A stretch of 31,406 nucleotides of DNA, taken from positions 1-31,406 of IMG/VR virus record IMGVR_UViG_3300017770_000084; one strand, written 5' to 3'. Both the position numbers and the translations under genes were made by a program. Positions 10,806-28,334 of this stretch are shown piece after piece. The notes under the pieces are model-generated. The model saw only the letters and a program-made list of their open reading frames with translations, made no database searches and had not been told where the DNA came from. Position 1 is the stretch's first letter. Each line of letters opens with the position of its first letter. The DNA is from a virus.

Positions 10806-13800
10806 TTAAGGGGACGCATCTGCTCCTTCAATAAGCTTCCATGTACATCCTAGATCATTACTACAAGGATTGTCATCATTTGAGACTGAATCCGTAGCAA
10901 CCGCTATTATTAAGCGATCGTCAAATCGGTCTAGATTAACACCACTTATTGTAAGAATACTATTCATACATACTTGAGCTCGACCGGTCCCGCTATTAAG
11001 GTTAGAGACAGTCATAGTAAGTGAGTTGGCTACATTAGAAATCAATTCATATTCACCAGTTCCATTCAATGGCTCATTTGAACACTTCCATCTATATAGA
11101 GCAACCACTATTCTTCCAGTTACAGGAACCGAGAATGAGTTAACCGAGCTTTCTGCTGTCCATGTAGCCCTATATGTAAAACTATCTCCGTCAGTATAAC
11201 TATTGTTAAGTATTATACCAGATGTAGCTAACCAAAATAAATCTGCTGAGCCGGAACCTCCTACTATGGTTGCACCAGTACCGGGGGCTAGACCAGTCCA
11301 ATTTGACGAAGCCCACCCAAGACCTTGGTTTGATGTGGCACTAACATCGCCAGTGTTATTTATCAAGAAAGTAGAGTTTAATAAATCACCTCCTATGTAT
11401 CTAGGTAATCCTCCAGCTATAGCCATTGAACCTTCTGCGACAACAATACTAGAATTTCCACCGGCTCCACTAACACCTTGTATACCTTGGGCACCTGTAC
11501 CAAGCAAACCTTGCAAACCTTGGGTACCTTGAGCTCCTGTCGTAGGTGCAGGGTATATACAATATGTATAGGTGTTAATTGAAGGTCCACTAGCAGCTGC
11601 TATAGTATAATTTCCAGTTTGGAATGTAACACCTAAAGCATCATATCCAACATTAGCTGTAATACTGTTTACTGTATATAATGCGTCTATACCATTAAGA
11701 GATACCCTAAGTGAAATAGTATCACCCACACTAAGGGTAACTGGATGGTTAATATCAGTACCTATATAAATTATAGTAACACTACTTGTGGTACCAGAAG
11801 AATTCAATGCAATCTGATCCGCTTGTGGGGAAGACAAAGTATTAGTTACGCCGTCCCAACCAACTGTATTTCCAGGTATACAACCGGAACCTATTCCACC
11901 TCCACCTTTAGGACCGATGGTTCCTTGTACACCTATAACTCCTTGTAAACCAGTAGTTCCTTGTACACCTTGCGGTTGAATACAATAAACAGTATCAGTT
12001 GATGAAGAGAATGTTTGACCAGAACCACCAATATAAGATACGCCCATTACTTGACCGACTACAACATTATTAACCAGATATGTATCAGATTCACCATCAC
12101 TCTGTGATAGCGATATTCTATCTCCCGCAATCGCAGTACCTAATGTACTTGATGATGTGGAGCTTACAAACACTTGAGTAACAGCAGTGGCATTTGAATT
12201 ATTTATAGCAAAGGTTCCAGCATTTGTTGAATTAGTTATAAGTACCTCAGCACCTGGTATTATTTCACAGCCTGTATTTAGCGGTGTTGTTCCTATAGTT
12301 CCTTGTGAACCGGTATTTCCTACAGTTCCTTGTAAGCCTTGGGTTCCTTGAGTACCGGTACCTATGATACCTTGTAAACCTTGAGTTCCTTGCGTACCAT
12401 CAGTTCCTTGTAAACCTTGTAAACCTTGAGTTCCTTGTAAACCTTGGGTTCCTTGAGTTCCATCAATTCCTTGTGTCCCATCAGTTCCTTGTAAACCTTG
12501 CAAACCTTGAGTTCCTTGTAAACCATCAGTTCCTTGTAAACCTTGTAAACCTTGAGTTCCTTGTAAACCTTGAGTTCCTTGGCTACCTAAACCAGAAATA
12601 CCTTGTAAACCTTGGGTACCTTGTGCGCCAGGATCTCCGTTACCAACAAGTTTTGTTAATGTTAAACTAGCATTTGAAATTGTAAAGGTATTAGCAGATG
12701 TGATGGCATTCATTATGATGCCAACAGTATCACCACCATTAAGATCTAAAATATCAACCATTGATATATTAGTACTACCATCTATATTTGTTATTACCTG
12801 AGTTTCTCCTGAAACTCCATAAGGACCTCCATTAAGTAGCACCTCGGTTGCAACATCATCAACAGCACCGGTTAAAAATCCAGTTATTGAAACATTTAAT
12901 GCATATTCGCCAGCTTCAGCGGCATCTATTTGTAATGTCCCAGTCGGGTTTGGGCCACCTCCACCTATATTGAGATATCCCATTTGATTCCTTTCACCTG
13001 AATTAAAAGGTATACCTCGATCAAATCCAGACGCAGCAGTATCAATTCCTATAGAAGAAGAATCATTTGTAGTTAGTATTAACGAACCGTATGCAACGGA
13101 TCCACTTATAGAACCTGATAAACCTTGAGTTCCTTGAGAACCTGAACCTTGTACACCTTGTAAACCTTGTGTTCCTTGAGAACCTGAACCTTGTAAACCT
13201 TGTAAACCTTGTGTTCCTTGTAAACCTTGTGTTCCATCAGTTCCTTGTAAACCTTGAGTTCCTTGTAAACCATCAGTTCCTTGTAAACCTTGTAAACCTT
13301 GAGTACCTTGTAAACCTTGAGTTCCTTGTAAACCATCAATTCCTTGTAAACCTTGTGTTCCTTGTAAACCTTGGGTTCCTTGAGTTCCTTGTACACCTAT
13401 AACTCCTTGTAAACCAGTAGTTCCTTGTACACCTTGCGGTCCTTGCGGTCCTGCAGGCCCTTGGTCACCAGTTACAACAAATGATAATAAAACATCCTCA
13501 TCCATTGTAAACGGTGCAACTTCAGTATATGCAACAGGTACAACTTCTAATTCCCACCATGTACCTCCAGTAGAAGGCCTGTCATATACTTCAGTTATTT
13601 GCCAAAGTATAAATTCATTAGCATCAGATTGAGCTGTAATTCTAACATGACCTTTAATTGGATTTGTAGAAGTTGCTATTGTTTGTAAAAATGTTGATAT
13701 GTTATTCCCGGTAACACCAAAGTCATTAATTGACATTATAGTAGATACATTTTGGTTTACATTATTTACTGCAACATAACTAAATCCTGGATCATCTACA

Positions 13801-14966
13801 ACGGTGGTTATATTAAATTGATAATCAAAAGATGCACCACCAAAACCACCAGCATCACCTTTAGTTCCTTGTATTCCTGTAAAACCTTGTAAACCGGTTC
13901 CACCGATTGTTCCTTGGGACCCTGCACCTTGTGCACCTTGTGATCCGGTAGGACCTACTATTGTTGAAGCTTCACCTTGGACACCTTGTGTACCTTGTAA
14001 TCCAAAGCCATCATTTCCTTGTACTCCTTGGATTCCTTGAGTTCCTAATATACCTTGAGCACCAACAGTTCCTTGTAAACCAAAACCATCATTACCTTGT
14101 AAACCTTGTAGTCCTTGGCTACCGGTTATACCTTGAGCACCAAGTAAACCAGCAGCAGCTGCTGTTACATTTACCCAATTCTGACCATCATATTGTAAAA
14201 ACTCAGATGAACTAGCAGAAGATGCATTAACATTACCTAAGCTATTTATATCAGTATTATTATTATTAAGTGTTGCTAAATCAATTAAAGACGAATCAAA
14301 ATTATAAACAACAGATTGATTAGGTATATTTGTAGCAACAGCTAAAGGTTCACCTAATGTTGTATATGTATTAGATGCGTTAAGTCCTTTGAATGTTAAA
14401 GTAGTACCACTCATTCCACCAAATATATTCTGGACACCTGTGCCTATACCTATATTTAGCCCTTGGTTTATTTCACCACCGGCAGAAGAGTTAATTAATT
14501 TAATTGCATTAACAGTACTGTCATATTGTAATTGAACGCCGTCACCTGCAATTAATCTAAATGTATCATTTGCGATCGAAGAATTTAATTCAAAATCATT
14601 AGCAGAACCTAATGAAGGCGTAACTCCTGTATAATTAACAACTATTTTACCATACCCATTAGCTGAACCTACAGTTACATCACCAGTTCCAATACCACCA
14701 ATAATATCCCATTCATCTGTTACAAATGTACCTTGTGTGGTTCGTGTATTTGCTCTCCACCAAACTAATGTCTCTGATACTACACTAGTGGAGCCACTAG
14801 GTTCTATTACTTCTACAGGGTGATACACAATATGACCAGTGTCGTATGTTCTATTATCTACCCACGGGTTTGCTACTGCCTTAAAATTTTCATCTACCTC
14901 ACCATTAAAAAGTTCCCTTTTAACTTCATTTCTATAGAGGATATATTCTTTTAGATTGAATGCCAT
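10806..14966 (-). CDS. Giant collagen-like tail fibre/adhesin with Gln-rich Gly-X-Y repeats
   Basis: 1386 residues. The N-terminus (1-95) is a small attachment domain ending LVWWRANTRTTQGTF then a W-D, resembling carbohydrate-binding or tail-hook modules. Five Gly-X-Y collagen-like stretches follow at about 273-376, 499-619, 778-892, 998-1029 and 1141-1171. Most triplets are GLQ or GTQ, with Gln in the Y position and very little proline. Between them are beta-rich globular domains: about 620-777 has the spacing of a C1q/TNF-type jelly roll (GEYALNVSITGFL ... LNGGDTVGIIM ... LTLTKLVG), and two related domains start with GC (about 893 and 1030). The C-terminal 215 residues form a beta-rich head with several cysteines, probably the receptor-binding tip. 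Likely a trimeric fibre. The glutamine codon is nearly always CAA, matching the phage tRNA-Gln(UUG). GAATAAATAAAAAAA precedes the gene. Confidence 0.85.
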   Translation of the reverse strand: MAFNLKEYILYRNEVKRELFNGEVDENFKAVANPWVDNRTYDTGHIVYHPVEVIEPSGSTSVVSETLVWWRANTRTTQGTFVTDEWDIIGGIGTGDVTVGSANGYGKIVVNYTGVTPSLGSANDFELNSSIANDTFRLIAGDGVQLQYDSTVNAIKLINSSAGGEINQGLNIGIGTGVQNIFGGMSGTTLTFKGLNASNTYTTLGEPLAVATNIPNQSVVYNFDSSLIDLATLNNNNTDINSLGNVNASSASSSEFLQYDGQNWVNVTAAAAGLLGAQGITGSQGLQGLQGNDGFGLQGTVGAQGILGTQGIQGVQGNDGFGLQGTQGVQGEASTIVGPTGSQGAQGAGSQGTIGGTGLQGFTGIQGTKGDAGGFGGASFDYQFNITTVVDDPGFSYVAVNNVNQNVSTIMSINDFGVTGNNISTFLQTIATSTNPIKGHVRITAQSDANEFILWQITEVYDRPSTGGTWWELEVVPVAYTEVAPFTMDEDVLLSFVVTGDQGPAGPQGPQGVQGTTGLQGVIGVQGTQGTQGLQGTQGLQGIDGLQGTQGLQGTQGLQGLQGTDGLQGTQGLQGTDGTQGLQGTQGLQGLQGSGSQGTQGLQGVQGSGSQGTQGLSGSISGSVAYGSLILTTNDSSSIGIDTAASGFDRGIPFNSGERNQMGYLNIGGGGPNPTGTLQIDAAEAGEYALNVSITGFLTGAVDDVATEVLLNGGPYGVSGETQVITNIDGSTNISMVDILDLNGGDTVGIIMNAITSANTFTISNASLTLTKLVGNGDPGAQGTQGLQGISGLGSQGTQGLQGTQGLQGLQGTDGLQGTQGLQGLQGTDGTQGIDGTQGTQGLQGTQGLQGLQGTDGTQGTQGLQGIIGTGTQGTQGLQGTVGNTGSQGTIGTTPLNTGCEIIPGAEVLITNSTNAGTFAINNSNATAVTQVFVSSTSSSTLGTAIAGDRISLSQSDGESDTYLVNNVVVGQVMGVSYIGGSGQTFSSSTDTVYCIQPQGVQGTTGLQGVIGVQGTIGPKGGGGIGSGCIPGNTVGWDGVTNTLSSPQADQIALNSSGTTSSVTIIYIGTDINHPVTLSVGDTISLRVSLNGIDALYTVNSITANVGYDALGVTFQTGNYTIAAASGPSINTYTYCIYPAPTTGAQGTQGLQGLLGTGAQGIQGVSGAGGNSSIVVAEGSMAIAGGLPRYIGGDLLNSTFLINNTGDVSATSNQGLGWASSNWTGLAPGTGATIVGGSGSADLFWLATSGIILNNSYTDGDSFTYRATWTAESSVNSFSVPVTGRIVVALYRWKCSNEPLNGTGEYELISNVANSLTMTVSNLNSGTGRAQVCMNSILTISGVNLDRFDDRLIIAVATDSVSNDDNPCSNDLGCTWKLIEGADASP
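11920..11976 (-). repeat. 57-bp exact direct repeat, copy 1 (copy 2 at 13384-13440)
   Basis: Positions 11920-11976 and 13384-13440 are identical over 57 bases and stand in the same orientation, in two different collagen-like tracts of the fibre gene. Recombination between them would remove 1464 bp (488 codons, in frame), including the jelly-roll-like domain and one GC-domain. Confidence 0.85.
13384..13440 (-). repeat. 57-bp exact direct repeat, copy 2
   Basis: Second copy of the exact repeat at 11920-11976. It ends 5' to the GPAGPQGPQG stretch on the minus strand. The distance between copies is 1464 bp, a multiple of three. Confidence 0.85.
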
Positions 14967-16687: not shown

Positions 16688-18010
16688 TTAACAATTTCTT
16701 CCATTCTCATATATGTGTTTCACTACTGGGAACCTTAATGAATATCCACCATTTTGGTTTTGGCTTTCTTCAAAATATTGAACAGTTACAGTTTTACCTA
16801 GAAGTTCATTATGATTGTTAAGGTAATGTTCTCTCTGTTCTTTAGAGAACCCAGATCCTACACTTACACGGTTACCTTTATGTTCAATAATAATATTACT
16901 TAAACCTTCTTTTTCAACTTGTTTTCCATTTTCTGTCCATCTCATTGTACCGTTCATGCATTCTAGTATTGTATATTCAGCATCATGGAATTTTTTAACC
17001 TTTAAAAGATTATGGCTTCTTTTACCTTCATAGCCAATATTCTTTCTAACCATGATTCCTTCAAACCCAGCCTCTTCGGCTTCTTTTGCCATTTCAGTAA
17101 ATTGCTCCTCGGTAGTTAATTGTTCTTGTGGTAAGAATTCTAACATAGAAGAGTTAATGTTTTCTGGAAGAATATCATATCCATTCTTAAGTCTCTCGGT
17201 AAGAGGTGTAGTTCCAACCTTATCATCAAATTCGTCTAAGGTTAAAAAATCAAATATAAAGAATTTAGGATTTTCAATTTGATGATCCTTCTTTCTGATT
17301 TGTTTCATAATTCCTTGGAAGTCTTCATTACCATCTTTATCTACCATACAGATTTCTCCATCTAAAATAAAGTCTCCACCTATCTTAGAAATTTCATTTT
17401 CTAAATTACCTAAGGTTGTAAATTCTTTACCGTTTCTTGAAAAGAATGTTACAGTATTCATTTCCTTTCTACAGATACATCTTACACCATCCAATTTTCT
17501 GGATCCGTACCATTCTCCACTTTGAAAATCCACTCTCTTAGGATTATATGCATTTGCTAAAGCGACCTTAAAGGTTGGAATTAAATCTGGGTGGATTGCC
17601 TTATTAATAGAAGTAGTACCACATCCCATATTAAGGTCTCGGTTTAGCATATAGTAAATAATATCTTCCCATTGTTTATTCTCTAGGACGAATCTATTTA
17701 CATTTGCAATTGCAGTATGACCGGTACATACCCTATTTCTTAAATCATCCAACAAGGTAAAGATACTACCGTATGTATTTGGGTGACCTAGTAAATCTGA
17801 ATTCTTTTTGCAATTCTTAGGAGTTACATTATATTTAAAATAAGGATTGTAAGTATAGAAGAAAACTTTTTGGAGAAATTCTCTATCAGAATTTTCGTCA
17901 GAGTTATCGGCATACTTTTTAAGAGTTGCAATTTTGTGATTTCCTGAAGAGGAAGAACGCATTTCATCCAAGAAGGATTGTAGATAAGTAAGGTTTGTGT
18001 ATTCAGTCAT
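16688..18010 (-). CDS. ATP-dependent DNA ligase
   Basis: 440 residues. The adenylation domain shows motif I as SRKLDGVR with Lys172 the AMP-linked lysine, motif Ia/III as FFSRNGKEF (about 189-197), the acidic LDGEI (216-220), motif IV in EGIMVRKNIGYEG and motif V as LLKVKKFHD. A C-terminal OB domain follows (VSVGSGFSKEQREHY, then TVTVQYFEES, then LRFPVVKHI). The N-terminal 160 residues are a helical DNA-binding region with LNMGCGTTSINKA, as in T4 gp30. The enzyme seals nicks in duplex DNA during phage replication and recombination. The next genes toward lower coordinates are the HAD phosphatase and dCMP deaminase. The leader is A/T-rich with a TATTATATTTATAATATAA stretch. Confidence 0.95.
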   Translation of the reverse strand: MTEYTNLTYLQSFLDEMRSSSSGNHKIATLKKYADNSDENSDREFLQKVFFYTYNPYFKYNVTPKNCKKNSDLLGHPNTYGSIFTLLDDLRNRVCTGHTAIANVNRFVLENKQWEDIIYYMLNRDLNMGCGTTSINKAIHPDLIPTFKVALANAYNPKRVDFQSGEWYGSRKLDGVRCICRKEMNTVTFFSRNGKEFTTLGNLENEISKIGGDFILDGEICMVDKDGNEDFQGIMKQIRKKDHQIENPKFFIFDFLTLDEFDDKVGTTPLTERLKNGYDILPENINSSMLEFLPQEQLTTEEQFTEMAKEAEEAGFEGIMVRKNIGYEGKRSHNLLKVKKFHDAEYTILECMNGTMRWTENGKQVEKEGLSNIIIEHKGNRVSVGSGFSKEQREHYLNNHNELLGKTVTVQYFEESQNQNGGYSLRFPVVKHIYENGRNC

Positions 18011-18093: not shown

Positions 18094-18348
18094 TTAACAA
18101 TTTTTTATTTGGTCCTGTATCTTTTTAAGCTTTGCGCATTTTTCAAAATCTTCTTTGTTTTCAAAATGTAGTAAAATTCTATCCAAGCTTTTAATTTTAT
18201 GTTTGGCAGTTTTTTCATCATACTGAAGTACCTGGTCAGGAAACATCATTATGGTATTATAACATAGGTTCATATATTGATCCCAACTAGTATTTTCTAA
18301 TTGGTCTAATAGTGACCTCATAAATTCATCGTTATCAAACTCTTCCAT
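18094..18348 (-). CDS. Small protein with UVR-type helical motif
   Basis: 84 residues, acidic at the N-terminus. The C-terminal helix pair contains ENKEDFEKCAKLKKIQDQIK, matching the UVR motif (E-D-F-E-x-A-A-x-L-R-D-x-I) that mediates UvrB-UvrC or McsA-McsB contacts and occurs in many small Bacteroidetes proteins. No other domain is seen. It overlaps the end of the DnaJ-like gene by 14 nt, suggesting the two are made together and perhaps act on the same target. The motif assignment is fairly good; the function is unknown. Confidence 0.7.
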   Translation of the reverse strand: MEEFDNDEFMRSLLDQLENTSWDQYMNLCYNTIMMFPDQVLQYDEKTAKHKIKSLDRILLHFENKEDFEKCAKLKKIQDQIKNC

Positions 18349-19171
18349 CTAAGTCTTTTACTTTTTTAATTAATTTTTCTTGCTCCTCAGTTAAGGCCTT
18401 AGGCAAATCTACAAATATGTTTATATAAAAATCACCATGCAAGTCAGGATTGTTGTATGAAGGAAACCCTTTTCCTTTTATTCTTAGCATAGTACCATTC
18501 CTTACACACTTAGGAATAGTATAAGTAATCTTTTTGTCAAAAACATCTATTGTTCCTTTACCTCCTAATAGAGCTTCATACATATCAATATGTCTTATTG
18601 TATGTAAACCTTTTTTGTCCAAATAAAAATTAGGGTCATCTTGTATTAGAATGGTTAAAATAAGATCTCCGTTTTGTTCTTCTGTCATCCCACGCTGACC
18701 TAAACCTTTCAGCCTCATTCGCTGTCCATTTTTTACACCAGGTCTAATGTCAACATTAATGGTTCGTGTGCCTAACCTAATTTCCTTAACACAACCATAA
18801 TAAGCATCATATAAGGTAATGTAAATTTTAGAATCTACGTTACCACCTCTTGTACTAAAACCATGATGACCTCTGAATCCACCACCAAACCCTGGATTAT
18901 TATAACCACCTGTCCTTATGAAGTCTTCAAAAAATGAATCGTCAAATGGCCCACTTCCAAATGGATTGCTTGCTCTTTGATCATACTGGGCTTTCTTTTT
19001 AGGATCACTAAGAGTTTCATACGCGTCTGCTATTTCTTTAAATCTCTCTTCATTACCAGATGATTTATCTGGGTGATATTCTTTAGCTAACTTTCTGTAT
19101 GCTTTCTTTACTTCGGCTTCTGTAGCATTTTTGTTTACACCTAGTGATTGATATGGATCTTTCATTTCCAA
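18335..19171 (-). CDS. DnaJ-type co-chaperone (class B, CbpA-like, no zinc finger)
   Basis: 278 residues. The J-domain (about 4-65) has the HPD motif at 33-35, with AYRKLAKEYHPDKSSGNEER just around it. A Gly/Phe linker follows (about 68-106), then two C-terminal substrate-binding beta domains (about 108-265) with the signature LKGLGQRGM and GDLILTILIQDDPNF and, in the second, LRIKGKGFPSY and HGDFYINIFVDLP. The CxxCxGxG zinc repeats of DnaJ class A are absent, so it is CbpA/class B. It should stimulate the host DnaK ATPase and deliver substrates. Phages such as lambda depend on host DnaJ; here the phage brings its own, perhaps for replication or virion assembly. It overlaps genes on both sides (10 and 14 nt). 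Confidence 0.92.
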   Translation of the reverse strand: MEMKDPYQSLGVNKNATEAEVKKAYRKLAKEYHPDKSSGNEERFKEIADAYETLSDPKKKAQYDQRASNPFGSGPFDDSFFEDFIRTGGYNNPGFGGGFRGHHGFSTRGGNVDSKIYITLYDAYYGCVKEIRLGTRTINVDIRPGVKNGQRMRLKGLGQRGMTEEQNGDLILTILIQDDPNFYLDKKGLHTIRHIDMYEALLGGKGTIDVFDKKITYTIPKCVRNGTMLRIKGKGFPSYNNPDLHGDFYINIFVDLPKALTEEQEKLIKKVKDLDGRV

Positions 19172-19506
19172 AATAACTGTATGCCTATAAGGCTACACGC
19201 CAAGCATAAGGATACTATTGTTTTTGTGGTAATACCTTCACCAAGAAAATACCAAGTTAAAAATGTAAAAGAAATAATACCTGACCCAAATGCAATAAAT
19301 CTACCAGGCCATAAAAGACCATCATAATACTCAACTATAAACCGAGTACCATAAATTAGTACATAACTTATACTGGTTCCAAATAAAATTGATACGGTTA
19401 AAGGGTTCTTTTTAAACCAAGGCCATACAAATTGACCATTTGTTTGAAACCATATTGCCGACTGTCCTAAAAAGAACAATAAAAATGCTAGGATTAATTT
19501 ATTCAT
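19162..19506 (-). CDS. Four-helix integral membrane protein
   Basis: 114 residues, nearly all hydrophobic, with four probable membrane helices (about 3-20, 36-56, 66-86, 92-112) separated by short loops. The topology resembles small drug-transporter-type proteins, but there is no conserved SMR glutamate in helix 1, so I do not call a transporter. It is a phage inner-membrane protein. It overlaps the DnaJ-like gene by 10 nt and the next gene upstream by 8 nt. Possible roles are holin-like, superinfection exclusion or host envelope change; none is shown. Confidence 0.75.
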   Translation of the reverse strand: MNKLILAFLLFFLGQSAIWFQTNGQFVWPWFKKNPLTVSILFGTSISYVLIYGTRFIVEYYDGLLWPGRFIAFGSGIISFTFLTWYFLGEGITTKTIVSLCLACSLIGIQLFWK

Positions 19507-19768
19507 TTGTATAATATTTATATCCCATTCTTACCATGTGGTCCATGTGGGATTCCATTTGTTTTGCAGTTATCCATACAGAAGGCTCAGGTGAAACGAT
19601 ACCATCTTCTCTTTTATCAAATGCTTTATTTAAAAACCACTTTTCTTTTTTACTCTCCCACCAAAACCAAACCTTTTGCCATGATCTCGGTTTTTTCATA
19701 TAAACCTTATTACCTTTATCCATGTGAGCTATGAATTGCTTATAGGTAACATCTTTATCCTTTTTCAT
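19499..19768 (-). CDS. Unknown small aromatic-rich basic protein
   Basis: 89 residues, with many tryptophans and lysines (WQKVWFWWESKKEKWFLNKA) and no signal peptide or membrane segment. Possibly a small fold binding nucleic acid or protein. The gene overlaps both neighbours (8 and 14 nt) in the DnaJ cluster. No family is recognised. Confidence 0.6.
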   Translation of the reverse strand: MKKDKDVTYKQFIAHMDKGNKVYMKKPRSWQKVWFWWESKKEKWFLNKAFDKREDGIVSPEPSVWITAKQMESHMDHMVRMGYKYYTNE

Positions 19769-19940
19769 TAATGTCTTTAATTTGAAGCTTCTTTATCTTT
19801 TCATCTAAACGAAACTTCTTTTCTTCTATCTTATTTGATAATTCCATTTGATTTGCAATTCTTTCAAGGACACTTGTTAATTTAGGGATATCACTTTCAT
19901 AATATTTACGACCCATGCTAGTTCTAAAAAATTCTGACAT
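19755..19940 (-). CDS. Unknown small helical protein, first gene of the DnaJ cluster
   Basis: 61 residues: a MGRKYYESDIPKLTSVLERI segment followed by a charged helix likely to form a coiled coil (about 30-58). Short phage proteins with 'YY-x-S-x-x-P-K-L ... L-E-R-I-A' are common in marine T4-like genomes, in my memory, but their function is unknown. It opens the minus-strand cluster running down to 18094, facing the plus-strand island across a 71-nt divergent spacer that holds GTATATAAAAATAAAC on its own strand. Confidence 0.6.
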   Translation of the reverse strand: MSEFFRTSMGRKYYESDIPKLTSVLERIANQMELSNKIEEKKFRLDEKIKKLQIKDINEKG

Positions 19941-19984: not shown

Positions 19985-19994
19985 TGAATATATA
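19985..19994 (+). promoter_or_regulatory. Candidate promoter of the plus-strand island
   Basis: TGAATATATA lies 17 nt before the ATG at 20012, in the only divergent spacer of the window (19941-20011). The same AATATATA box is used on the minus strand before other genes. Its occurrence in the correct orientation for the only plus-strand genes supports it as a promoter element. Confidence 0.45.
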
Positions 19995-20011
19995 ATCAAA
20001 ATAACTACATT

Positions 20012-20515
20012 ATGAAAAAGGTACCTTTATTTGAAGATTTTATCCCTGTAGGTTTTGCCACAGATAATGCTGCTCAATTTTCCTTAGGAGGAGTTAGCAA
20101 CACTGAGACTGGATATAACATGGATGCTATCGTTGGTCCAGTTGAACAATGCTCAAACCATGTAGCAGAACAGGCTAACAGTTACGAAACAAATGACAAT
20201 GCTGAACATACAGCAGAAGCATATATTAAAGAAGCAAAGAAACATATTAATGATAAGATAGATGAAGCATGCGAAAACTATTCTGCTATGGATGAATCTA
20301 CTCTTAATGAAGGAACCGATATTAGTTCATGGAACCAAGCAGGAATTAAAGGTGATGCAAATGCGCAGATAACTACCTTCGCTGGTCCTAAGGATATTGA
20401 ATCTTTTGGTTTAGGTAGAAAATGTATGCAAATAAATATCGGCAGAAATTATGTACAGCTAAACCCTGCTGATATTGTAGAACTAAAAGACCTTCTTAAA
20501 AACTATAAAGTATAA
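20012..20515 (+). CDS. Putative internal head protein or precursor with capsid-targeting-like N-terminus
   Basis: 167 residues. The start, MKKVPLFEDFIPVGF, has the aromatic-x-x-aromatic-Ile spacing of the T4 internal-protein capsid-targeting sequence (which begins MKTYQEFI), although Val13 stands where the cleavage Glu is expected. A second candidate site for a T4-type prohead protease (Leu-x-Glu) is Leu98-Asn-Glu100, in DESTLNEGTD. The middle is acidic and Asn/Ala-rich; the C-terminus (about 125-167) is a compact NIGRNYVQLNPADIVELKDL domain. It overlaps the next gene by 1 nt. I infer that it is packaged in or processed with the head; the family is unknown to me. Confidence 0.7.
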   Translation: MKKVPLFEDFIPVGFATDNAAQFSLGGVSNTETGYNMDAIVGPVEQCSNHVAEQANSYETNDNAEHTAEAYIKEAKKHINDKIDEACENYSAMDESTLNEGTDISSWNQAGIKGDANAQITTFAGPKDIESFGLGRKCMQINIGRNYVQLNPADIVELKDLLKNYKV

Positions 20516-20760
20516 TGATACCTAAATTTAATAAATATTTAAATGAAGCATCTGATTATGAATTTAAACCTAATGAGGCTGCTGCTAGATTAAAAGCTAG
20601 AGAAAAGGAAAATATCCAAAGATATAGAGCTGCTCAAGATAGAGGTGATAATTTTGCAATTGCTTTATATGAACTAAAAATCAAAATGGATAAAATTGAT
20701 CTTGAAGGTTTAAAGGTACAAACAGAGATCCATAAGCTTAAACAAAAATTCGGTAAGTAA
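20515..20760 (+). CDS. Putative internal head protein with Leu-Asn-Glu cleavage site
   Basis: 81 residues. The first 11 residues, MIPKFNKYLNE, contain the T4-type prohead protease site L-x-E at 9-11 with two aromatic residues ahead (Phe5, Tyr8), as in T4 internal proteins, whose targeting peptides end in F-I-x-E at residue 10. After the predicted cut the rest is a charged helical protein (about 20-80), a likely coiled coil. The start codon overlaps the previous stop (TATAATGATA) and its own stop overlaps the next start (AAGTAATGATAG), so the genes are coupled. Not recognised as a known family. Confidence 0.7.
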   Translation: MIPKFNKYLNEASDYEFKPNEAAARLKAREKENIQRYRAAQDRGDNFAIALYELKIKMDKIDLEGLKVQTEIHKLKQKFGK

Positions 20761-21080
20761 TGATAGGTAAATTTAAAGAATTCTTAAATGAAAAAAACTT
20801 TATGGTAGCAACAGCTGATACTGCTGTTAAATATAGACTATCACATATGCCAATGTCAGGTTATATTGTAGCAATGGCAGCAAGCGGTAAAGAATTAGAT
20901 AAAGAAATAAAATCAGGATTTTCTAAAACCGTAATTGCTAAAGATATAGAAGATATGTTAAATGATCAATTAAAAAAGTATAGACAGTTTATTACTGTAA
21001 GTGTTGATAATACTTATAAAGGAGCAGGTTATGCATTTACGATTGACATGGATGAATTACTAAAAACATTAAACAGATAA
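20760..21080 (+). CDS. Putative internal head protein with Leu-Asn-Glu cleavage site
   Basis: 106 residues. The N-terminus MIGKFKEFLNE aligns with that of the preceding gene at every key position (Met1, Lys4, Phe5, aromatic 8, Leu9, Asn10, Glu11), yet the remaining proteins are unrelated. This is what is expected if the peptide is an address tag removed by the prohead protease. The body has a small alpha/beta pattern (AMAASGKELDKEIKSGF and a final ITVSVDNTYKGAGYAF strand pair). Starts and stops overlap neighbours by 1 nt. Function after cleavage is unknown; in T4 such proteins are injected with the DNA and counter host defences. Confidence 0.72.
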   Translation: MIGKFKEFLNEKNFMVATADTAVKYRLSHMPMSGYIVAMAASGKELDKEIKSGFSKTVIAKDIEDMLNDQLKKYRQFITVSVDNTYKGAGYAFTIDMDELLKTLNR

Positions 21081-21511
21081 TGGAGAATAACCAAGAAAGA
21101 GAAGACTTAAGTAAAATCCGCCACTATAAAGGTACAGTAAAAGATTTTAAAAATTACTGGGATGAAATGGCTGGGGTAGAAACCAATGCATTCGGTACTC
21201 CAGAATATCAAGGCTTTAATAATGTTCACCCAACTCGTGGTGCTAATGATAGTGATCATTGGAAAACTTCAAATGTAACCGAAGGTAGAAAAACAACCGA
21301 CGGTTTAGGTGATGAAGGTATGGAGATATACCGAGACTTAGATTTACAGATAGGTCTTGACGATCCTAAGTACACTATTCGCAGTTACAAAGATATTGAA
21401 CCTGCTATGAAAGATCATAAGTTATTTAAAAAGTTAAATCCTAGAGAAGTAAGAATATTAGGTAATGCATTAGGTAACTTAATGAGAATAGCAATTAGAA
21501 TGGAAAGGTAA
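21080..21511 (+). CDS. Unknown protein, last gene of the plus-strand island
   Basis: 143 residues, hydrophilic, with a Gly/Asn-rich middle and a C-terminal helical part (PREVRILGNALGNLMRIAIR, about 121-140). It has no clear capsid-targeting peptide; DFKNYWDE (about 22-29) is only weakly similar. It is coupled to the preceding gene by a 1-nt overlap and meets the oppositely oriented oxygenase gene 3 nt away, so there is no room for a terminator between them. No family is recognised. Confidence 0.6.
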   Translation: MENNQEREDLSKIRHYKGTVKDFKNYWDEMAGVETNAFGTPEYQGFNNVHPTRGANDSDHWKTSNVTEGRKTTDGLGDEGMEIYRDLDLQIGLDDPKYTIRSYKDIEPAMKDHKLFKKLNPREVRILGNALGNLMRIAIRMER

Positions 21512-22696: not shown

Positions 22697-22792
22697 TTAA
22701 GTTAATAAGGCAAATAGCATTAAAGAAAAATATGCCAATGCAAAGCCTAAGAATATATCTATTGATTTTAATTTAGTTAAAAAGTTTTTCAT
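22697..22792 (-). CDS. 31-residue single-helix membrane protein
   Basis: This short ORF begins MKNFLTKLKSIDIFLG and continues with a hydrophobic helix (residues 13-30) ending in Leu-Thr. Its ATG overlaps the stop of the PspC-type gene (ATGA), and 9 nt separate its stop from the glucosaminidase ATG, so it is probably translated in a chain with them. The N-terminus is basic and the helix has few polar residues. Size and position make it a candidate holin or holin regulator, but it could also be a partner of the PspC protein. Spurious reading is less likely because of the overlap and the good codon pattern. Confidence 0.55.
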   Translation of the reverse strand: MKNFLTKLKSIDIFLGFALAYFSLMLFALLT

Positions 22793-22959
22793 AATTCCTT
22801 TGATAAAAAGATCCACAGTATTACGTATATCCAAAATGCCGCAGGTATTAAAAATAGAAATGCAATCCTAAATAAAATTGAAGGTATGCCTAACCAATTA
22901 CCTAGCCCTTCACAAACTCCACCAATATACCCGGAACCTCTGTATAGTTTATTTCCCAT
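22789..22959 (-). CDS. pspC: PspC-domain membrane protein
   Basis: 56 residues. It is a nearly complete PspC domain: a basic start (NKLYRGSG), the hallmark GGVCEGLGNWLGIPS, then a membrane helix in LFRIAFLFLIPAAFWIYVIL and the end ILWIFLS. PspC is an inner-membrane component of the phage-shock/envelope stress system in bacteria and binds PspA and PspB; in Bacteroidetes short PspC proteins are common. The phage version consists only of this domain. It follows the PNK-type phosphatase gene (10 nt) and its stop overlaps the next start (ATGA). It may stabilise the host membrane during infection or modulate the host stress response. It is shorter than 60 codons and would be missed by ordinary cutoffs. 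Confidence 0.88.
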   Translation of the reverse strand: MGNKLYRGSGYIGGVCEGLGNWLGIPSILFRIAFLFLIPAAFWIYVILWIFLSKEL

Positions 22960-22969
22960 AAGTTTATTT

Positions 22970-23479
22970 TTAAAAATTACCTTCTGCTACCTGAAAACAA
23001 TCCAAACCGTTTTCTCTCCACATCTTAACAACTTTATCTCTGTCATCAAATACACAAACAATATCGTTTTTCTTATCGCCTGGAAATAAAGTATCTAACC
23101 ATTGTTGTTTTAATTTATCATCAGGCATCCATTTGAACGGATGACCAGTAGGTCTCATTTTCAATATGTCAAAAGGGACACCGAATTTTTCTAACCATTC
23201 TTTGGTCGTTTCCTTAGTTGCCTTACTTCTTCCACTTAAAATTATAATTCTATGACCAGAGTTTTTTAATATTCTAGCCATCTGAATTACTGGCCAGTTA
23301 GGTTTGTCTAAATTAATATTAGAAGGATCAAAGAATTTATCCCAATCCATTTTACCATCTTCCTTAGTTGAAATTTTTCGTCTTTCTTCAATATCAGCAA
23401 GAGTTCCGTCAAGATCAAAAATTACAGTATTAGATTTACTGTCCATTTCAAATTCATTAATGTCTAATCCTATATCCAT
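22970..23479 (-). CDS. Polynucleotide kinase-type 3'-phosphatase domain (HAD), without kinase domain
   Basis: 169 residues. HAD motifs are complete: FDLDGTLAD with nucleophile Asp22 and Asp24, SGR (82-84) in IIILSGRSKATK, a later Lys122, and FDDRDK with Asp145-Asp146. Between them is GKMDWDKFFDPS and NWPVI; the end is GLDCFQVAEGNF. This is the pattern of the C-terminal 3'-phosphatase domain of T4 PseT/polynucleotide kinase, which removes 3'-phosphates from nicked RNA or DNA ends. The N-terminal P-loop kinase of T4 Pnk is missing, so 5'-phosphorylation must be done elsewhere or not at all. In T4 the enzyme repairs tRNAs cut by host anticodon nucleases; here it lies near the tRNA-Gln gene. It starts an operon containing the PspC-type gene, the tiny membrane protein, glucosaminidase and oxygenase. 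Confidence 0.87.
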   Translation of the reverse strand: MDIGLDINEFEMDSKSNTVIFDLDGTLADIEERRKISTKEDGKMDWDKFFDPSNINLDKPNWPVIQMARILKNSGHRIIILSGRSKATKETTKEWLEKFGVPFDILKMRPTGHPFKWMPDDKLKQQWLDTLFPGDKKNDIVCVFDDRDKVVKMWRENGLDCFQVAEGNF

Positions 23480-27596: not shown

Positions 27597-28334
27597 TTAT
27601 TTCTTTATTATTTTAAAAGTTTTTACAAATACTCCATTTGTTATTTGCAACAAATAAACACCTTGGCTTAAATCAGATAAATCTGTTTGGAATGAAACAT
27701 ACCCACTAAAGAATTTTTTCCTAAAGGTTTTGTATACCACTCCGCTATAACTAATTATTCTTATTTCATAATCACCATTATCAGGCACGGTTAAATCAAA
27801 AGTTAATAATCCTTGTGTTGGGACTGGATATACTACACCATAAATGCCATCTATTGGATTAGTGTCAAATGGTGCCATTCTTTTATTAACATACCCATCA
27901 GTATTTAAAACTTCAATATCCCAGCCTAATTCTGTACCTGCTGTTTTTCTACCAATCGTAATAGGAATAGTATCCCAGTCTTGGTTAGTGACTCTAAATC
28001 TTATTGTAAATAATTCAGTAGTGTTACTTATTGTATAGGTACCAAATGAAGCATCATAACCACCCCACCTAACAGTTTCCCCTTCCCAATCCATTGTATA
28101 GGTTAACCATTCTTGTGCTTTAACAGTAACACTAATTGATACAAATTCTAAATAATCAGAATCATAATTTAGTGCAAATTCCAAACTACCAACATCTTCA
28201 CCTGTAGTTTCAATTTCAATAGGTAAGTTAATGTACTCACTAACAGGCACATCAATCTCAGGTACGTTAAATACGACCTGAGACTGAGCGCTTGTAGCTA
28301 GTAAAAATAGTAATGTTAGTAATATACACCTCAT
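27597..28334 (-). CDS. Secreted cohesin-like protein with T9SS C-terminal sorting domain
   Basis: 245 residues. The signal peptide ends about residue 18 (TSAQSQ). Residues about 20-150 form a cohesin-like jelly-roll: 'V...V.VPI.I....VGSLEFALNYDSDYLEFVSI ... FTIRFRVT'. Residues about 166-245 are the type IX secretion sorting domain (type A): YPVPTQGLLTFDL, EIRIISYSGVVYKTF, then TDLSDLSQGVYLLQI and the final VKTFKIIKK, the usual order of motifs. Host T9SS would export this protein and attach it to A-LPS at the cell surface. This sorting domain is specific to Bacteroidetes, which is strong evidence for host phylum. It is separated by 1 nt from the genes on both sides. Confidence 0.86.
   Translation of the reverse strand: MRCILLTLLFLLATSAQSQVVFNVPEIDVPVSEYINLPIEIETTGEDVGSLEFALNYDSDYLEFVSISVTVKAQEWLTYTMDWEGETVRWGGYDASFGTYTISNTTELFTIRFRVTNQDWDTIPITIGRKTAGTELGWDIEVLNTDGYVNKRMAPFDTNPIDGIYGVVYPVPTQGLLTFDLTVPDNGDYEIRIISYSGVVYKTFRKKFFSGYVSFQTDLSDLSQGVYLLQITNGVFVKTFKIIKK

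Follow-up and report, generated by a model that had tools for sequence, protein, structure and literature searches.

Organization of the plus-strand island

The window analysed here is a 31,406-bp IMG/VR virus record, taken at its full length, and represents a fragment of a T4-like phage. Nearly all of its genes lie on the minus strand. Four overlapping genes, designated A–D, form a plus-strand island at 20012–21511. The initial annotation had described three genes as the sole plus-strand island of the window. The island is indeed the only one, all other gene-like ORFs being on the minus strand, and it includes a fourth gene at 21080–21511 that had been overlooked. A late-promoter-like box, ATATATAA, is located at 19988–19995, 24 nt upstream of the gene A ATG. 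The box and all island features described below are on the plus strand.

Gene A (20012–20515) encodes a protein of 167 residues that consists, in order, of a diverged leader (MKKVPLFE/DF), a conserved N-module (g1N), a predicted protease junction, and module D. The junction, Leu98-Asn99-Glu100/Gly101, is encoded at 20303–20311. Module D is a cargo module of 67 residues (GTDISSWNQAG...LLKNYKV, 20312–20512) that makes up the C-terminal part of the protein. Gene B (20515–20760) encodes 81 residues, which comprise a leader and module Y, a charged module rich in Ala, Glu, and Lys. Gene C (20760–21080) encodes 106 residues with a leader and module G3, and is a facultative member of the cassette. Gene D (21080–21511) encodes 143 residues. 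Its start overlaps gene C by one base in the TAATG style of the other island genes. The product is composed of an N-module (g4N) that lacks a typical T4-type leader, a predicted junction at Val66-Thr67-Glu68/Gly69 (21275–21283), and cargo module T (GRKTTDGLG...IAIRMER, 21284–21508) in the C-terminal part.

The bodies of the island proteins share no mutual similarity, in agreement with the earlier description of the products as otherwise unrelated. Profile searches of the four products against PHROGs and Pfam gave nothing above the cut-off, and they showed no resemblance to known anti-defence inhibitors. Genes A, C, and D had no tblastn match in 50,697 phage records, and the island matched named phage records at neither the DNA nor the protein level. 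Relatives of gene C were also sought in bacterial and archaeal genome contigs, where none was found. An AlphaFold2 model of the gene C product has an α/β structure with a pLDDT of 66, and a fold search with it returned no significant match. The model of the gene A product is poor, with a pLDDT of 51, and was for that reason left out of the fold search. Its sole confident part is a helical hairpin formed by residues 38–95.

N-terminal leaders of the island proteins

The product of gene B, MIPKFNKYLNEA, displays F5, Y8, L9, N10, and E11, and that of gene C, MIGKFKEFLNEK, displays F5, F8, L9, N10, and E11. In the capsid-targeting sequence (CTS) of T4, residues 4 and 7 serve targeting, residues 8 and 10 serve processing, and gp21 cuts at L/I-x-E (PMC9026906). 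T4 IPII and IPIII carry the leader MKTYQEFIAE/A, which is cut by gp21. The leaders of gene B (MIPKFNKYLNE/A, 20515–20547) and gene C (MIGKFKEFLNE/K, 20760–20792) follow the same capsid-targeting layout, shifted by one residue. The T4-like Leu-x-Glu leaders previously proposed for these two genes are thus confirmed. In relatives of gene B, the aromatic-x-x-aromatic arrangement is kept together with NE or TE (MSIPKFNEYLTE, MSISNFKDFDLNE). The five leader residues F5, F8, L9, N10, and E11 of gene C are identical in all seven aligned sequences, one of which is only 41% identical overall.

The N terminus of gene A, MKKVPLFEDFI, and the internal LNE at residues 98–100 were correctly noted in the initial annotation, and its remark that the start contains no Glu holds only for the canonical place. 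L6-F7-E8 is present, and relatives of gene A hold a proper leader Glu (MSKIPKFEKFNE/A, MSKIPNFDKFEVNE). The leader is therefore considered diverged, not foreign.

A T4-derived pattern, [FYL]..[FYW][LIV].E within residues 2–16, matches 3 of the 40 window genes, compared with 0.18 in shuffled N termini. None of 1000 shuffles reached three genes. One of the three matches is to LQSFLDE in the DNA ligase at 16688 and has very probably arisen by chance. Because such a short motif also matches a DNA ligase, the pattern alone is no proof of a leader, and the case rests on comparative evidence. A looser regular expression, with 15 matches observed and 7.4 in shuffles, was dropped in favour of stricter patterns and a profile. 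As judged from their sequences, the leaders of genes B and C, and probably also the diverged leader of gene A, are very probably address peptides of the T4 CTS kind. A function of the leaders in capsid targeting is highly likely.

Leader proteins in related genomes

A leader profile was trained solely on leaders of this phage family, including those of the relative G024, and was applied at a threshold of 10 bits. T4 ipII and ipIII rank first among the 248 T4 genes, each with 14.8 bits. Two relatives of the training set that were not part of it, G032 and G033, contain 11 of 248 and 7 of 193 genes, respectively, that score at least 10 bits, compared with 0.70 and 0.22 in shuffles. G033 has further likely leaders below 10 bits, for example MKHIKLFEQFINE. 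Each relative encodes approximately 7–13 leader proteins. The bodies behind the leaders include no similar pair among 13 proteins of G032 and one similar pair among 12 proteins of G033. The background of the profile is non-zero in every genome scanned, and crAss001 and PTm1 display no clear excess of leaders.

Two proteins of P-SSM2 stand out under the profile, starting with MKSFKQFLEEA and MKSFSQFLTET. The second is an NMNAT-like cytidyltransferase of cluster T4-GC 190 (YP_214426), in which the leader MKSFSQFLTE/T is followed by about 100 residues and the NMNAT-like domain. The same architecture is found in an NMNAT-like polyprotein of the relative G001 (72240–73616; L089 12240–13616), where a joint precedes the enzyme domain. 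P-SSM2 contains only one or two such leaders, whereas the NMNAT protein of the window's family is a polyprotein that additionally possesses a second copy of the leader inside the chain and C-terminal modules that can be exchanged. Sullivan et al. 2010 list cluster T4-GC 190 among the virion structural proteins determined by experiment (PMC3037559), and S-CREM2 virions contain a cytidylyltransferase (PMC10665884). Of all the observations, the virion cluster T4-GC 190 comes closest to experimental evidence for the leader, but it belongs to another phage group and is silent on cutting.

Recognisable domains in leader proteins of relatives include the NMNAT-like enzyme and an enzyme of the CCA-adding/poly(A)-polymerase type (PF01743, 2.4e-34), and further leader proteins are an ATP-grasp protein and a SnoaL/CaMKII_AD-type protein. 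The CCA-adding family protein is encoded at 61395–62549 of G033 (L229 1395–2549), bears the leader MKIKTYTEFKLLTE/A, and may be an enzyme for tRNA repair that travels in the head. A PARP-like match of a leader protein in contig L198 is below the cut-off (E 0.024) and is not claimed. RNA-ligase-like KTDG motifs in leader proteins of 421–423 residues were seen by eye only and lack profile support. In G006, a leader protein, MQLLSYDEFLVENNLNE, adjoins the island (22732–23115; L096 2732–3115, minus strand). It contains an HEYVERA stretch that recalls a metal-binding motif, and it has no match in Pfam.

Relatives of the island and their prohead protease

Relatives of genes A and C were found at about 80 loci in scans of viral contigs, with 17 loci for gene C; the scans also revealed 34 loci of a distant leader protein and 28 loci of a cargo module. 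The gene A N-module recurs in about 70 contigs. The relative G024 (181,663 bp) is collinear with the window. It matches 27 of the 40 window proteins with a median identity of 65%, and its island is likewise inverted relative to the neighbouring genes.

G024 encodes a gp20-type portal (PF07230, 4.3e-73) and a gp23-type capsid protein (PF07068, 7.8e-31). A gp21-type S77 prohead protease is encoded between these genes, at 18182–19903 (PF03420, 6.0e-16, above the cut-off), and also matches the PHROG 207 head maturation protease (2.3e-40). PF03420 exceeds the cut-off in all four leader- or module-bearing relatives larger than 100 kb that were tested, namely G024 and three genomes found via a cargo module, G032 (205 kb), G033 (149 kb), and G034 (108 kb). 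The protease gene is absent from the 31-kb window, itself a genome fragment. The lack of a prohead protease, named in the initial annotation as grounds for refutation, is countered by the gene in the collinear G024. The search for PF03420 in 23 contigs of at most 81 kb gave no match. The contigs read do not span the portal and capsid genes, and the result is not taken as absence, since G024 has the protease.

Hydrophobic-(N/T/S)-Glu-(A/S/G) sites are numerous in the C-terminal region of the related protease ORFs. PTm1, which belongs more distantly to the same broad phage group, likewise has a protease ORF full of such sites, although it displays no excess of leaders. In addition, nearly all capsid proteins of the group start with (L/Q)INE(A/S)E. 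These sites and starts fit a protease that cuts mostly after h-N-E, where h is a hydrophobic residue. The annotated prohead protease ORF of Chryseobacterium phage MA9V-1 (L106 27087–31130) is a chain of 1347 residues with 16 h(N/T/S)E(A/S/G) sites, mostly INES-like, and from its sequence resembles a fusion of a protease with a self-cut polyprotein. An LNPNMNVQ piece is common to a 75-residue protein of G001 (73616–73843; L089 13616–13843) and the N-terminal region of the G024 capsid protein.

A box nearly identical to that of the window precedes the island in the nine relatives displayed. G024 contains 46 boxes, 27 of which are located within 60 nt upstream of a gene, compared with 1.6 expected. 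The genes concerned mainly encode portal, protease, sheath-like, tube-like, baseplate, fibre, and leader-bearing proteins, with the tail genes named from position and inspection. A box common to the island and the head genes fits late expression of the island together with the head, as packaging requires.

Several features of the contigs concern the host and the assemblies. The gene at 27597–28334 of the window (minus strand) combines a Cohesin-like domain with a type IX secretion sorting domain behind it (PF18962, 1.5e-8), which is unusual in a phage. The sorting domain marks Bacteroidetes and hence supports a Bacteroidetes host. A complete-looking gene for a TonB-dependent receptor of 909 residues, composed of CarbopepD_reg, Plug, and β-barrel domains, is located near the island in two relatives (L067 12819–15548 and L072 10306–13035, both minus strand). 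The window also encodes a fibre-like protein of 1386 residues with long collagen-like repeats of the GLQGTQ type (10806–14966, minus strand). In relatives, similar repeats lie where contigs end and may be a cause of broken assemblies.

Exchange of modules at predicted cleavage sites

The modules of the island recur behind different partners. In G024 77476–78051, module D is located behind SITE/G after an unrelated upstream part; this copy of the module (L174 17845–18045), about 43 kb from the G024 island, has 76% identity. The gene A N-module precedes module M or Y in other contigs, and g4N precedes module K, H, or V. Module T is placed behind NVTE/G, FLNE/A, or FINE/A, or forms a separate protein of 88 residues, MKKHIPLFEDFNLNE/G. 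Module K is fused behind TSNIDE/S inside gene D and behind FDIFE/S in another fusion, and alone it follows MKANKNHITNFNLFE/S, MKHTTDFNEFINE/S, MKTFKEYSEEGFVNE/S, or MKHLQLFKEFLNIISE/S. Module Y either has its own leader or is fused, at MSE/A after the gene A N-module and at IME/A, VTE/A, or VAE/A behind other modules. Module M follows TNE/A in a fusion or MSIPKFNEYVNE/A when alone. Module X lies inside the NMNAT polyprotein in some contigs and has its own leader in the L076 island.

An aligned hydrophobic-x-Glu is present near 38 of 48 non-redundant cargo module starts, which are not independent and are dominated by module Y, versus 19 of 128 boundaries in other proteins. The motif has a frequency of 11% at positions inside modules. 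A first boundary test, which included all proteins and allowed a tolerance of ±3 residues, gave 41 of 350. Most boundaries in that test represent ordinary N-terminal divergence, and local alignments overrun the joint by a few residues. The test was redone with a wider search range and a non-cargo control, the range being widened after the first result had been seen. The counts are given without a p-value, because the pairs are not independent and the range was widened after the first pass.

The 63 distinct cassettes, some of them cut by contig ends, display 23 module orders. The g1N, Y, and g4N parts are near-constant, and D or M, G3, B, S, X, and T, K, H, or V are gained and lost. Docking or core functions may reside in the constant parts, with the variable modules as the cargo. 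The literature searched, which covered few subscription journals, yielded no description of module exchange at prohead-protease sites.

Discussion

The island would be a late-expressed cassette of capsid cargo. An N-terminal peptide of the T4 CTS kind would dock the products of genes B and C, and probably that of gene A through its diverged leader, in the prohead core. A gp21-type S77 protease would cut after hydrophobic-x-Glu, here mostly h-N-E, and remove the leader. It would also cut the two products that contain two modules each, that of gene A behind Glu100 and that of gene D behind Glu68, so that the modules are set free as small proteins. These would remain in the head with the DNA and then enter the host at infection. 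Because every module starts right after a cutting site, the modules could be exchanged, fused, and provided with new leaders without loss of delivery.

The capsid-targeting reading put forward in the initial annotation agrees with the match of the leaders to IPII and IPIII, the gp21-type protease in relatives, the late-type box, and the exchange at the predicted cleavage site. The mosaic build of the proteins and the extent of the leader set had gone unnoticed in that annotation. For the island products we infer packaging, cutting, and injection. Cutting after the leader or junction Glu is likely, and injection into the host, argued by analogy, is rather likely. The reading as a whole, a late-made, capsid-targeted, protease-processed cargo that accompanies the DNA, is very likely. 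The products are very probably T4-like internal proteins in an expanded, modular form. An anti-defence role for at least one window module, also suggested by analogy, is possible but somewhat short of probable. Any action in the host is speculative and would most likely be directed against host defences or at repairing the damage that they cause. No virion proteomics was found for this phage lineage.

The island proteins might instead belong to the prohead core or scaffold, like T4 gp67, gp68, and gp22, and would then be targeted and cut but degraded or kept for shape, not injected. Such a role would explain why g1N, module Y, and g4N occur in nearly all cassettes, as structural parts would. 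It is also consistent with the helical hairpin in the gene A model and with the cutting of T4 core proteins at several sites (PMC9026906). However, D, M, G3, B, S, X, T, K, H, and V are gained, lost, and swapped among close relatives, unlike core proteins, and other leader proteins of the relatives are enzymes. We consider a core or scaffold role unlikely.

Mere recombination at gene starts could spread a common translation-start region that is unconnected with the head, and the leaders are indeed short, located at gene starts, and part of cassettes that recombine often. This origin is very improbable, given that conservation is seen at the amino acid level, in the positions known to matter in the T4 CTS, that the same h-x-E is present at internal fusion joints, where a gene start is not needed, and that the genome of a relative encodes the cognate type of protease. 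A chance resemblance between two adjacent genes is scarcely credible. The regular expression does match the DNA ligase of the same window, and the profile has some background in every genome, but no shuffle reached the window count, the leader residues are identical even in a gene C homolog of 41% overall identity, and the relatives hold many leader proteins each.

The preferred reading, processed capsid cargo, can be compared with three known systems. T4 IPI–III likewise combine a short leader, aromatic residues three apart, and a hydrophobic residue and Glu at the cut with unrelated bodies. Ip1–3 have only the leader in common and inhibit GmrSD restriction enzymes, a different one in each case (PMC12373910). 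The resemblance to T4 extends to the T4-type portal, capsid, and S77 protease of the relatives and to the late-type promoter box. In contrast to T4, the predicted cut sites here are mostly h-N-E instead of L/I-x-E, and the products can fuse two or more modules at such sites, with modules moving between leaders and loci. Two T4 leader proteins reach the profile threshold, compared with roughly 7–11 in relatives.

The inner-body and ejection proteins of phiKZ and SPN3US are similar in that many head proteins are cut after Glu by a gp21-related protease (PMC5694885, PMC9026906). Most SPN3US propeptides are long, several exceeding 100 residues, and have A-x-E sites (S/A-x-E in phiKZ), whereas the leaders here span about 9–18 residues and the modules are exchanged at cut sites. 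Polyvalent proteins, known from phages and conjugative elements (Iyer et al. 2017, PMC5512222), also contain several domains with different tasks per chain and are probably both delivered to the host and released by proteolysis. They are large and may embed a peptidase domain, whereas the modules here are small and the likely processing enzyme is a separate head protease. The window products, with 81–167 residues and no Pfam match above the cut-off, do not qualify as polyvalent proteins.

The exchange of modules provides natural evidence that the joints are functional. We give an even chance to a modular form of virion delivery, in which prohead-protease sites are universal joints and small effector modules are fused, split, swapped between loci, and re-addressed. 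If this is true, the set of injected proteins would differ from phage to phage and number up to roughly twelve, some of them enzymes that may restore NAD+ and mend defence-damaged tRNA. NAD+ and tRNA are targets of host defences, which makes a repair role of the leader enzymes an attractive possibility. NAD+ is described as such a target in PMC12774641.

Proteins packaged in the head are among the earliest phage products that host defences encounter, and few of them are known outside T4 and the phiKZ group. The signature of a leader and h-N-E joints makes it possible to list straight from contigs what a large, uncultured lineage of marine phages probably carries as payload. As candidate tags, the leaders could serve to load proteins into the heads of such phages, and the variable modules represent a new set of anti-defence candidates.
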